A stretch of DNA of 21,062 nt from a virus: positions 1 to 21,062 of IMG/VR virus record IMGVR_UViG_3300044641_008079, one strand, 5' to 3'. Below the pieces are notes generated by a model, which worked only from the letters and a program-made list of their open reading frames with translations, was not told the origin of the DNA and did not search any database. A program made the position numbers and the translations under genes. This document shows positions 2,344-21,062 of the stretch, piece after piece (position 1 is the first letter of the stretch; every line of letters begins with the position of its first letter).

Positions 2344-5300
2344 CCCGCCATCCCTGCCCCCTCCCTGGTGACGCCTACCTGGCGGAGCTGCTCGGCTGGA
2401 GCGAAGACCAGCTTCTGCACTACCAGATTGAACGGCAACAGGCCGCGGCGAGGGAGTACGAGCGGAACCCGCCGGTGGCCACCTGCGCCGCCGAGACGCT
2501 GGGTGTGATCTCGCTGGTGACCACCATTCTCTCGGTCGGCTACACGGTCCTCTCCTCCCTGCTGGCGCCCAGGCCGCGGCGGCCTGGCCAGGTCACCAGC
2601 AGCCAGCAGCAGGGAGAGAACATCTCCGATGGGGCTCGGTATTCGCCACGGCCGGGCTTCGACTCCACCCAGGAGGTGGCGCGGCTCGGCAGCGTGATCC
2701 CGATCACCTTTGCGCGGCGGGAGTATCTGCCGGCCCTCAACGGCCGCCCCGCAGGCTGGTACGGCGGCTGCCGCGTGGATCTCGGCGTGGTGTGGTCGAA
2801 ACTCTCCAGCCTTGGCGGTGCGCAGCTCTTCAGCGGCTACTACGTGCTGGGGGAGGGCCCGATGGCGGAGATCGATCCGGCTGGTTTCGCCCTGGGCAAC
2901 AACCCCTTGCGGTCTTACGACCTGGGCACCGCCGGGGCTAACGAGAACGCGGCGCGACTCACCCTCTATGCCCGCCTGGGTGGGGGAAGGATCCGATCCA
3001 CCGATCGCATCGCCGGCCGCCTGGCTGCCAACGACATCGGCAACATGGAGAACGCTGGCGGTGGCGATGTGTTCCAGGTGCGCAGCACCGGCGGCGTGAT
3101 CCGCCCCGATGCCTGCGCGACAGGCCGCCCCAGCAACAACACCGCCTGCGGCCTCTACAACACGATCGGCAACAGCCTCGGCTACCGGATCAACCCTCAG
3201 CTGCGCCCCACCCGCCAGTTCGCCGCCTACCCGACAGGCGACGACGGTGACCAGCGGATCAATCCGGTCGATGATCCAGTGGCCATGGGTGCGACATGGA
3301 AGGCGAAGTACGTATGGTCAGGCCGGAGCGGCGTCATCAGCACCTCTACCGGCGTCACCAACAGCTTCGCAAATCTGAGCGTGGGAGCGACCTTCGACTT
3401 CCTGCTCTCCGATAGCTCGGACGCGCTGACCACGCTGAAGTTCAACAGCACCAACACTGACGGCGGCGCTGATCACACGGAAACCTGCTCCGATGTGGGA
3501 GCGGCGATCAGCGCCCGCCAGCGCAGTGCGGATGACGCCCTGGTGATTGGTGAGCTGTTCAAGTGCGGCAGCTGTCTGGCGGTGCTGGAGCAGCGCACGC
3601 CGTCTGATACGGCCTTCATCTCCGACGCGGACAATCAACCGTTTGGCAACGGCATTTCGATCACCGCCCGCTTTCGCGTGGTGCGTGCTGGCGTGGTGGT
3701 TGTGACCCCCCAGGATGAAATCGATCCGGACACCACCGGGGATCAAATCTTCCCGATGAGGGTGACCAGCGGCATGAACTGGGACTGGACAGCGGTAGAT
3801 TCCGGGCCCAGGTATGAGACCGGCACCAGCCGAGGGCACCTGCACCGGTGCGCCATTGCCGACTTCACGCTCAATAAGCCGGCGCGAGTGGTGGAGATCG
3901 GACTGCGCAGCACGGTGGGGATCCGTGGCAGCGGATTCACGAACCTCCGCCAGGCGCCAACGATCAAGGAGATCAACCGCTTGGCTGGCGGCGAGAAAGG
4001 CGGGGAAATCCTGTCGGCTGGCGAGAACCTGAAAATCGCCACCTACCAGAGCGGGACACGGGGATTTCCTGAGGAGCGTTACAGCTTCATCCGCCTCAGC
4101 TACCGGCCAGAAGGCGCGGTCGACTTTGTGGAGCTGCCCACCCTCTATGGCATCCGGGGGCTGACCCAGCAGGCCCAATACAACAGCATTCAGCTAGAGC
4201 TCCCTGCCGGTGCCCGCTGCGCCCAGATCCGCCTCGAGCCCATCAGCGGCTGGGAGATCCGCTCAGGCACCGCCACCGGCCAGCTGGCAGTGCTTGACAG
4301 CCGTATGACCAACCTGCAAACGGTTGTCGATGGCTCCTGCACCGTGCGCTACGCCGGCAAGTCCCCATTCGCCCGATCGGCCGGTCGCTTCAGGCTGAGA
4401 TCGATCGAACCCGAGCAGGATCTCGGCCTTGGCTGGAGCGATGGCGATGCCATGACCGATCCATGGGGCAAGCTGGCCGAGGCCTTTGTCTACGACGAGA
4501 TCCAGACCACGGCGGGCCAGGGGCCTGAGCATGAGATTGCCTACGTCAACATCATTCAGTCCAACGCCACGGCCCCCAGCTACAGAGCGATTGCCTCGGT
4601 GGGGCTCAATGCACGATCGGCGCTGGAGCTCCAGAGCGTCAATCAGCTCTCGGCCCAGGTGATCGGCGGCCACATCTGCGAGCGCTACATCGAGCAGAGC
4701 GCCGGGCCCACCCACTTGCTACCTGACATCTTCACCAGGCTGGCCACCAGCACGGACTTTGGCGCCGGCCTGGACGTGTCTGCCGAACAGATCAATACCC
4801 CCAGTTTTCTGGCCGCGGCGCAGTGGTGCTTTTCCAGGCGGTATTTCTTTGATGGCACTCTGCCGCAGCCGGAGAACCTAAGGCAGTGGGCGGCGGATCA
4901 GGCAGGTTTTCACCTGCTCGCCTTCTACGAGCTCAATGGTCAGTTCTACTTCAAACCCACACTCTCGTTCGATCCGGTGCAGATCGTCGATCTATTCACC
5001 GCAGCCAACATCAAGAAGGGTACGTTTCGGAGCACCACCAGCGACGACGACCAGCGGCGGCCAATCCAGGTCAGCGGGCTGTACCGAGAAGAACGCAGCA
5101 ACGATGACATGCTCTCCCCTGGTGTGTTTGCGACGGTGCGAGAGATCACGATCCGCGAGGCCACCGCCAGCGACAGCGACCCGGTGGAGCCGCTGGACCT
5201 GAAGGCCAGCTGCACGAATCGCTGGCACCTGATCGACGCGGCGAAGTTCCTTATCCGCTGGCGGCGCCTGGTGGGGGATCCGATCAGCTTCGAGACCACT

Positions 5301-17625: not shown

Positions 17626-17999
17626 GGCTGGTCTTTGCGCAGATGCGCAGCAAGCCCGCAGCCGTTACAAGTAAGGCAACTGCGGTAAGATGTGCCGTTG
17701 ATGCCTGCGGATTTGATGGTTTGCCCAGAGCCGCCGCAGTGGTGACATTTGCCGGTTTCCTTCTCATAGATGCTTTTGGCAGCATCCACGTCTAGGCGGG
17801 TCACAATCACGCGCAGTAAGTCACGCTTTGGCGGCCATTTAGGCGTGCCTTTGCGAGGGCCACGAGAATAAATACCGGTTGGGACGGAGCCATGCAGCAG
17901 GATTCCACCAGCGATGGCTTCGTAACTGCATGGTTTCCACTCGTCGGGCAGATCGTGGACTTGACGTGCAGCCAAGGCGAAAAAATCGATACTGGTCAT
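17622..17999 (-). CDS. Small protein with DnaJ-like four-cysteine zinc motif
   Basis: The 125-residue protein is coupled to the ERF gene by ATGA (17996-17999). The N-terminal ~60 residues are a globular region with SIDFFALAARQVHDLPDEW. After a basic linker, CHHCGGSG (Cys85, Cys88) and CLTCNGCG (Cys108, Cys111, with Cys114) form one CxxCxGxG-type zinc knuckle pair, like half of a DnaJ cysteine-rich domain. Such knuckles bind zinc and often nucleic acid or protein. Placement directly after a single-strand annealing protein suggests a recombination or replication accessory. I know no named family member, so the function is inferred from motif and context. Confidence 0.7.
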   Translation of the reverse strand: MTSIDFFALAARQVHDLPDEWKPCSYEAIAGGILLHGSVPTGIYSRGPRKGTPKWPPKRDLLRVIVTRLDVDAAKSIYEKETGKCHHCGGSGQTIKSAGINGTSYRSCLTCNGCGLAAHLRKDQP

Positions 18000-18961
18000 G
18001 GCTGTGGCCCCGCTGGCGCCTGCCCGCCCTGGGCCCGGCTGGTCGCCAGCTGATCAGCGGCGATGAGCTTCGCTTCGATCTCCGCGAACCGCTCCGGGGT
18101 GATCGCCGGATCCATCAGTTCCTGCTCGAGCTTCCGCCGATCGTCTTTGCTGATCCACCCGGGAGGCGGCGGGGGGATTGCCCTTCCCCCCACGGTCCTC
18201 GCCTGTTGTGCGGTGCTCTCACCCTGCCGCCGTTGTGGGGTCGCAACGGTCCGGCCTCCGGAAGGCCTGGCGGCCTGTTGCCGTGGGCTGGTCTCGCTGC
18301 TGGCGTTGAAATCGTCATCACGCTCTGCGGCCAGCCCCAGCACCATCTGCAGGGCCAGCCGCCTGGCGGTGGTGAGGGCTGCAGCGTGGGCCTGGCCGCG
18401 GCGGTCGCTCTCGCCCATGAATAGGGGCACTGGTCCGCTGGTGATCGCTCCACCACCGGAATGGACCAGATAGGCGGTGACCACCGGATCCCCGAAGTCA
18501 TCGAGCTCCTGGCGGGTGATGGCCGCCAGGCCATGGGCCGCGGCACCCTGGCCCGTGGCGATCACGCCGGCCAGGTCGGCGTAGCCGTAGGAGATGGTGC
18601 TGCCCTTCTTGGTCTGATACTCCGCCTGCCGGTTCTCCGTCAGCCTGGGTGCGGTGGTCTGCCATTCGGCGAAGGCGGCGAACAGTTGCATCTGCTGCTC
18701 GACGGTGGGCCTGTAGCCGAGGAACTCGATCAGCCGGCGTTCCTGGTCATCTCTCGGCGCGGGCTGTCCGCCCTGGTCCTGGTTCAAGCGGCTGCGCAGC
18801 TCACCAAAGGCAGCGCGCATCGCCTCGAAGCGTGAGGCGGTATCGGCCTCACCGGCGGCGACCCGATCGGCCAGCTGCAGCAGGGTCTGGGTGATGTGTT
18901 CGAGGTCGGCCTGCTCGGCGGGCCTCCCCGGCGGCCCGGAGGGTGGGGAGCTGTTTTCCAT
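17996..18961 (-). CDS. ERF-family single-strand annealing protein
   Basis: A 321-residue protein whose residues ~88-220 match the ERF superfamily (P22 Erf-type): a helix (EQQMQLFAAFAEW), KKGSTISYGYADLAGVI, HGLAAITRQEL, a strand with HSGGGAI, and the hallmark GQAHAAALTTARRLALQMVL ending in acidic ERDDDF. These proteins coat single-stranded DNA and anneal complementary strands, driving phage recombination or genome circularisation. Residues 16-60 form a coiled-coil-like N-terminus. A Gln/Arg/Pro linker with PPPPPGW (from residue ~267) leads to a C-terminal helical segment (DRRKLEQELMDPAITPERFA). It is the first gene of the leftward operon, so it is probably an early gene. The ATG at 18961 has no strong ribosome site. 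Confidence 0.85.
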   Translation of the reverse strand: MENSSPPSGPPGRPAEQADLEHITQTLLQLADRVAAGEADTASRFEAMRAAFGELRSRLNQDQGGQPAPRDDQERRLIEFLGYRPTVEQQMQLFAAFAEWQTTAPRLTENRQAEYQTKKGSTISYGYADLAGVIATGQGAAAHGLAAITRQELDDFGDPVVTAYLVHSGGGAITSGPVPLFMGESDRRGQAHAAALTTARRLALQMVLGLAAERDDDFNASSETSPRQQAARPSGGRTVATPQRRQGESTAQQARTVGGRAIPPPPPGWISKDDRRKLEQELMDPAITPERFAEIEAKLIAADQLATSRAQGGQAPAGPQP

Positions 18962-20365: not shown

Positions 20366-20473
20366 CAGATTGGAGACGCCGCTGGCTCAGTTCGTCCTGA
20401 TACGGCTATGGTCAAGCCATCTAGGCCGGTTTGCCGCCCACAACAAAGGCCCCGCCGTAACGGAGCCAATGTT

Positions 20474-20600: not shown

Positions 20601-21062
20601 ATGCCGACCAAAGACTTCAGCGGTGAACTGCACCGTCCACTGTTTGCTCAGATCCCCCTCGATCTCCTGAGTTCGTGTGCAGAACGCAAGCGCAGAAGGC
20701 TGGTGTTTGTGTATGCCTGGCTCTTTTTCTACGCGGGGCGTGCTGATAACGCTTTCCCGTCCATCCCACGGCTTGCCCTCGAAACCGGCATGAAGGAGGA
20801 CGACGTCCGGGCGGCGATTTCCACCCTTCTGGGCGAGGGCTGGATCACGCGCACCGGTTCGGGCCCAAACGGCACCAACTCTTACCGGGTGAGAATGGAA
20901 GCAACGCGCAAGCGACGGGCGCCGAAAGCCGTTGGCAGACAGCGGAAGTCAGGATCACCACCCCCCGTAAAGGGGACCCCCCGTTACGGGGGGGGGACCC
21001 CCCTTACCGGGCCCCCCGTTACAGGGGGTGGGGACCCCCCGTTACGGGGCCCCCGTAACGGG
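20601..21062 (+). CDS. Winged-helix replication-initiator-like protein, 3'-truncated by window edge
   Basis: ATG 20601 opens a frame that runs off the window after 154 codons. Residues ~8-45 (LHRPLFAQIPLDLLSS, RRRLVFVYAWLFFYAG) and 51-97 (FPSIPRLALETGMKEDDVRA, then LLGEGWITRTG and NSYRV) form a winged helix-turn-helix typical of phage replication initiators and DnaD/lambda-O-like proteins, which bind origin DNA and recruit helicase. A basic linker (ATRKRRAPKAVGRQRKSG) follows, then a Pro/Gly-rich stretch from residue 119 coded by the C-run/G-run DNA repeats. A GGAAGGA lies 18 nt before the ATG, too far to be a normal ribosome site. It is on the strand opposite to the recombination operon. A transcription-factor role is the main alternative. 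Confidence 0.65.
   Translation, partial: MPTKDFSGELHRPLFAQIPLDLLSSCAERKRRRLVFVYAWLFFYAGRADNAFPSIPRLALETGMKEDDVRAAISTLLGEGWITRTGSGPNGTNSYRVRMEATRKRRAPKAVGRQRKSGSPPPVKGTPRYGGGTPLTGPPVTGGGDPPLRGPRNG
20961..21062 (+). repeat. Iteron-like C-run/GTTAC/G-run repeats inside the initiator gene
   Basis: Six C-runs (five of six C, one of five) start at 20961, 20977, 20998, 21012, 21035 and 21050, each followed by a core (GTAAA, GTTAC, TTACC, GTTAC, GTTAC, GTAAC) and a G-run. CCCCGTTACGGGG is an inverted repeat around a single central base. Spacings of 16, 21, 14, 23 and 15 nt are not all multiples of three, and the GTTAC cores at 20983, 21018 and 21041 fall in three different codon phases, so the DNA word rather than the peptide is conserved. 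The array continues to the window edge. It is a candidate origin of replication of the lambda-ori type. Confidence 0.7.

Follow-up and report, generated by a model that had tools for sequence, protein, structure and literature searches.

The 3' end of a viral contig raises the question of whether a GC-rich repeat array, embedded in a replication-initiator gene, is the replication origin on which the encoded protein acts. In lambdoid phages the origin is situated midway along the O gene (PMC7466680), and an earlier note made from the letters of this DNA had proposed the same design here. The DNA analysed (the window) is the entire 21,062-base IMG/VR record IMGVR_UViG_3300044641_008079. The record terminates at its 3' edge in a near-perfect inverted repeat (21038-21062), so the contig edge is probably an assembly break, and the following features were defined in the window and in its relative, contig L003.

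20601-21062, + strand: 5' part of an O-like replication-initiator gene (ATG at 20601; 154 codons; cut by the contig end)
20658-20891, + strand: winged-helix DNA-binding domain (residues approximately 20-97; Pfam, and AlphaFold2 on L003)
20796-20837, + strand: helix 66-79, the likely recognition helix (residue 67 is D in the window)
20961-20975: iteron 1, CCCCCCGTAAAGGGG
20977-20991: iteron 2, CCCCCCGTTACGGGG
20998-21011: iteron 3, degenerate, CCCCCCTTACCGGG
21012-21028: iteron 4, CCCCCCGTTACAGGGGG
21035-21049: iteron 5, CCCCCCGTTACGGGG
21050-21062: iteron 6, truncated by the contig end, CCCCCGTAACGGG(G)
L003 5465-5560: A+T tract, expected in the window's phage past the contig end
20448-20467, - strand: terminator-like stem-loop upstream of the initiator gene, GGCTCCGTTACGGCGGGGCC TTTGTTGTGG

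The initiator gene and its product

The complete reading frame in L003, whose product is 97% identical to that of the window across the N-terminal 115 residues, encodes 428 amino acids and is open throughout the array and the A+T tract. The HTH_36 model (PF13730) scored 24.9 bits in the window (E 1.7e-5) and 21.5 bits in L003, the Pfam gathering score being 25. An AlphaFold2 model of the L003 protein, which was moderate in quality (mean pLDDT 61), contained a winged helix at residues 20-97 (helices 20-29, 33-44, 55-62, and 66-79 plus two strands) and a helical domain from residue 231. Residues 101-227 between the two domains were predicted to be disordered, and this linker covers both the array and the A+T tract.

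The L003 protein matched the PHROG replication-initiation profiles 270, 391, 1032, and 678 (E 1e-10 to 1e-6); its likeness to these families spans the winged helix and runs into the linker, and the C-terminal domain is hardly covered (phrog_1032 to residue 253). Lambda O matched profiles 391, 678, and 345, of which 391 and 678 are common to the L003 protein. Direct comparison with lambda O using hhalign gave a probability of 0.1%, from a shallow alignment in which the lambda side was a single sequence. Because the PHROG profiles are shared but the direct comparison fails, the initiator is called O-like here and not a proven homologue of lambda O. Structure searches using Foldseek against the PDB returned winged helices of a generic kind, with no match reaching E 0.001, and those against BFVD returned, at low TM-scores, phage helix-turn-helix proteins that are mostly uncharacterised. 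No match was obtained when tblastn was run with the complete L003 protein against phages or with its N-terminal part against plasmids.

Among 14 related contigs, which are possibly incomplete, no recognisable DnaB (DnaB_C), DnaC/IstB-type, or family A polymerase (PolA) gene was found. A gene of 169 amino acids in L003 (6284-6793) shares a few bases with the end of the initiator gene and matches only phrog_35089, a profile of unknown function. Its place corresponds to the position of lambda P, and it could be the missing helicase loader.

The array, its constraint, and the adjoining A+T tract

The earlier note had claimed at least six units of the form C-run/core/G-run, and six such dyads were located at 20961-21062, with starts at 20961, 20977, 20998, 21012, 21035, and 21050. 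All three codon phases are used and both orientations are present. The codon position at which the word GTTAC begins is 2 in the unit at 20977, 1 in that at 21012, and 3 in that at 21035, in full agreement with the earlier note, and the different peptides that result (PRYG, PVTG, and PLRG) were also correct. Under a first-order Markov model, 5.8 occurrences of the strict form C4+N3-7G4+ were expected in the window and 6 were observed, 4 of them within the 102 bases of the array and just two in the rest of the window. Single units thus occur at chance frequency, and it is their clustering that constitutes the signal. Elsewhere in IMG/VR the exact word CCCCCCGTTACGGGG occurred as unrelated singletons, the exception being L024, which is contig L003 itself.

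Selection on the DNA, under which the earlier note would expect the use of several phases, was assessed by synonymous resampling, in which the array peptides were recoded with codon frequencies taken from the remaining parts of the genes (5000 trials each). For each of the seven genes, none of the 5000 recodings reached the observed number of units, and the same result (0/5000 in each gene) was obtained for the A+T content of the tract. Glycine codons were GGG in 49 of 66 cases in the arrays versus 21 of 160 elsewhere, and arginine codons were AGG in 11 of 14 versus 23 of 254. As neither the arrays nor the tract arose in any resampled coding, selection acts on the DNA. The likeness of units within an array also exceeded that obtained when position-matched units were swapped between arrays (matched in 0 of 500 permutations, or 1 of 500 without the window); units are therefore homogenised within arrays despite their different codon phases.

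Extension of the contig to the right, which had been proposed as a way to find the full array and an A+T-rich region, was achieved by way of L003. Its array closes at unit six and is followed directly by GACCCAATCAATAAACCTCTAAACAAAGAAGAAGAAAACC, and an array succeeded by an A+T tract is common to all close relatives. The tract was the lowest-GC 70-bp window of the locus examined in 8 of the 8 close relatives checked, and GC across its 96 bases was 0.35-0.43, versus 0.55-0.71 in the N- and C-terminal parts of the gene.

Six units are the rule in close relatives (60-75% identity), at gene positions 363, 379, 400, 416, 435, and 451. Units of the window lineage are shifted by 0 to 5 bases from these usual positions, and in L031/L032 a 12-base insertion carries a seventh unit. 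At this level of identity the arm runs, the six-unit geometry, and the A+T tract are kept and the cores have changed, being GTTAC in the window, AGA in L004, CAG-type in L052, and TACA/TGTA in L031. Alignment of homologues, which the earlier note had offered as a check on whether the DNA cores are conserved while frames drift, came out in favour of its reading in that the arms are conserved as DNA, and cores and peptides change; the other computational checks that it proposed did likewise, apart from GC skew. Three phases do occur inside each array, but the phase of a given unit is largely fixed between close homologues because the geometry is kept. Repeat-number variation, also suggested at that time, is not needed, the number of units being nearly constant at six in close relatives. 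The number of units is four to seven in distant relatives (approximately 45% identity in the winged helix), the cores being AAAT, AAAC, or AAAA, and a tract such as CTAACAAGAAGCCTTTAACAAGAAC again lies 3' of the array. An additional dyad, CCCCCCAGTGGGGGG, was observed in three of the distant relatives (L066 2930-2944, L068 2930-2944, and L089 2706-2720) approximately 60-70 bases past the last iteron, beyond the A+T tract.

A DNA-only search of 2.9 million IMG/VR viral contigs with the pattern C4N4G4N4C4N4G4N8C4 returned 19 contigs, comprising 17 already known through the protein, one with an O-like relative (L100), and one outside the family (L097). The array is thus a nearly specific DNA marker for the initiator gene family. 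The contig of the L097 match (4485-4524), the sole one outside the family, is GC-rich and apparently unrelated, and the match consists of C-run/G-run dyads.

The origin reading and its alternatives

The array and tract very probably serve a probable cyanobacterial phage as its replication origin, located inside its own initiator gene as in lambda and bound by the winged helix. We infer that origin activity would begin with binding of the six C4/core/G4 dyads by the winged-helix N-terminal domain, which would build an O-some whose strain would melt the A+T-rich tract that adjoins the last dyad on its 3' side. The helical C-terminal domain would then recruit the host replicative helicase, either directly or through a loader not recognised in these contigs. 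In this mechanism the array and tract would be encoded as the disordered linker between the two domains, and such a linker tolerates many peptides, so that the DNA would be free to serve as an origin. In a 67-kb relative, cumulative GC skew turned near 5 kb, adjoining the gene at 6.4 kb, and also at several other places, a measure that is confounded by gene direction.

The lambda-like design put forward earlier is well supported by the O-like PHROG profiles, the in-gene dyads, the A+T tract, and the selection on the DNA. Lambda has four annotated iterons (ATCCCTCAAAACGAGGGA and variants) in gene O codon phases 1, 3, 3, and 2, likewise covering three phases, with an A+T tract next to them, and O binds the duplex iterons. 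Common to both systems are dyad iterons of the C-run/G-run kind in several codon phases in the middle of the initiator gene, an A+T tract directly 3' of the iterons on the coding strand, and a protein with a DNA-binding N-terminal part and a separate C-terminal part, between which the linker encodes the origin. The system described here differs from lambda in having C4-6/G4+ arms and far higher G+C content, six units instead of four, cores that vary between relatives where lambda's four iterons share an A-rich core, an N-terminal domain of HTH_36 type with no direct profile match to lambda O, and no recognisable DnaC-type loader in the 14 possibly incomplete contigs. In Stx lambdoid phages six iterons are present in gene O, and the lambdoid A+T tract is crucial for unwinding and dispensable for O binding (PMC7466680). 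Salmonella phage P22 is similar in that a rep_origin is annotated inside its O-like gene 18, with repeats followed by A+T-rich DNA; it differs in that the repeats are of TTTACC/CGGTAAA type, not C-run/G-run, and in that the adjoining gene 12 is annotated as similar to DnaB helicase. A literature search for cyanophages with iterons returned no origin of this kind. The mechanism is already known from lambda, and the new part is a family, associated with cyanophages, in which the C4/G4 arms are fixed and the cores drift. The locus provides a concrete, sequence-defined candidate origin for a probable cyanobacterial phage family, and suggests that the lambda design, in which the origin is hidden in the disordered linker of the initiator, also occurs in GC-rich genomes with other repeats.

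Were the array instead used to autoregulate the initiator or to control copy number (as operator or titration sites), with the origin proper elsewhere, its winged-helix-bound dyads would have the same appearance. This reading is nevertheless improbable, because the array lies more than 350 bases inside the gene, away from the promoter, and no further similar C4/G4 array was found in the flanks examined around the gene. In addition, the lowest-GC stretch of the locus, which is itself constrained as DNA, adjoins the array in every close relative, and a pure operator needs no melting tract. A further, very unlikely reading is that selection favoured a Pro/Gly-rich linker peptide and that the DNA pattern merely resulted from this, repeat slippage in a GC-rich genome having expanded it. 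In its favour, P and G are consistently abundant in this part of the linker, which is predicted to be disordered, and homogenised cores within arrays could result from slippage or gene conversion, but resampling yielded the observed units in none of the trials for any of the seven genes, the units stand in different phases and both orientations, and array codon use is strongly unlike that of the rest of the gene. Near-constant unit number and spacing and the A+T tract next to the array also argue against a peptide by-product.

Action of the arms through structure, as single-strand hairpins, cruciforms, or G-quadruplexes (for example, in a single-strand initiation site or an RNA element), is similarly far-fetched. 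Single-strand folding of three arrays was stronger than that of shuffled sequences (z about -2.8 to -3.6), but any dyad array folds in this way, and the corresponding z for lambda ori was -5.3. Either strand carries G-runs and C-runs in alternation, an arrangement more favourable to hairpins than to quadruplexes, and the G-quadruplex formation considered in the earlier note is not needed. Homogenisation of cores within arrays is explained by sequence recognition and not by structure alone.

Core type, probable host, and neighbouring features

Residue 67, the second residue of helix 66-79, is D in the window and R in most close relatives. It was R in 13 of 13 sequences with A/T-poor cores (at most 2.4 A/T per unit) and D, E, or another residue in 12 of 12 sequences with A/T-rich cores (at least 2.86); because this sample holds two events at most and many of its sequences are near-copies, the link is put forward as a hypothesis only. 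In a tree built without residue 67, the window lineage sat among the R sequences and the best tree needed two changes; one-change trees were obtained in 0 of 200 bootstrap replicates, but the strongly supported branches alone still allow one change. The window lineage appears to have switched both residue 67 and core type within the R clade. A possible, though rather doubtful, interpretation is a clamp-and-core code, in which the fixed C4/G4 arms would anchor the initiator and the drifting core together with residue 67 would set type specificity. Relatives with equal geometry and different cores form a natural experiment on initiator-origin co-evolution.

The cyanobacterial label in the earlier note is backed by the tail-fibre protein of the window, which matched 458 phage records at approximately 30% identity, all 458 of them named as Synechococcus, Prochlorococcus, cyanophage, or marine virus. 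These matches support, short of proof, a cyanobacterial host. In a scan of genome contigs the only matches were short helix-turn-helix ones (Labilibacter, an Ignavibacteriae MAG, and Solobacterium), and therefore no host genome or prophage was identified.

The stem of the stem-loop at 20448-20467 is largely conserved in relatives, as is its T-rich tail (CAACAAAGGC on the + strand). The word GTAACGG at 20452 was considered as an operator-like unit and rejected, since in relatives it is part of this conserved stem-loop and not a copy of an array unit. No promoter was found for a leftward transcript ending at the stem-loop; the placement of this leftward terminator recalls the lambda oop antisense RNA. 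An Erf-type single-strand annealing protein is encoded on the - strand at 17996-18961 (PF04404, E 1.9e-7; phrog_2324, E 1.9e-14), which suggests phage-encoded recombination near the initiator.
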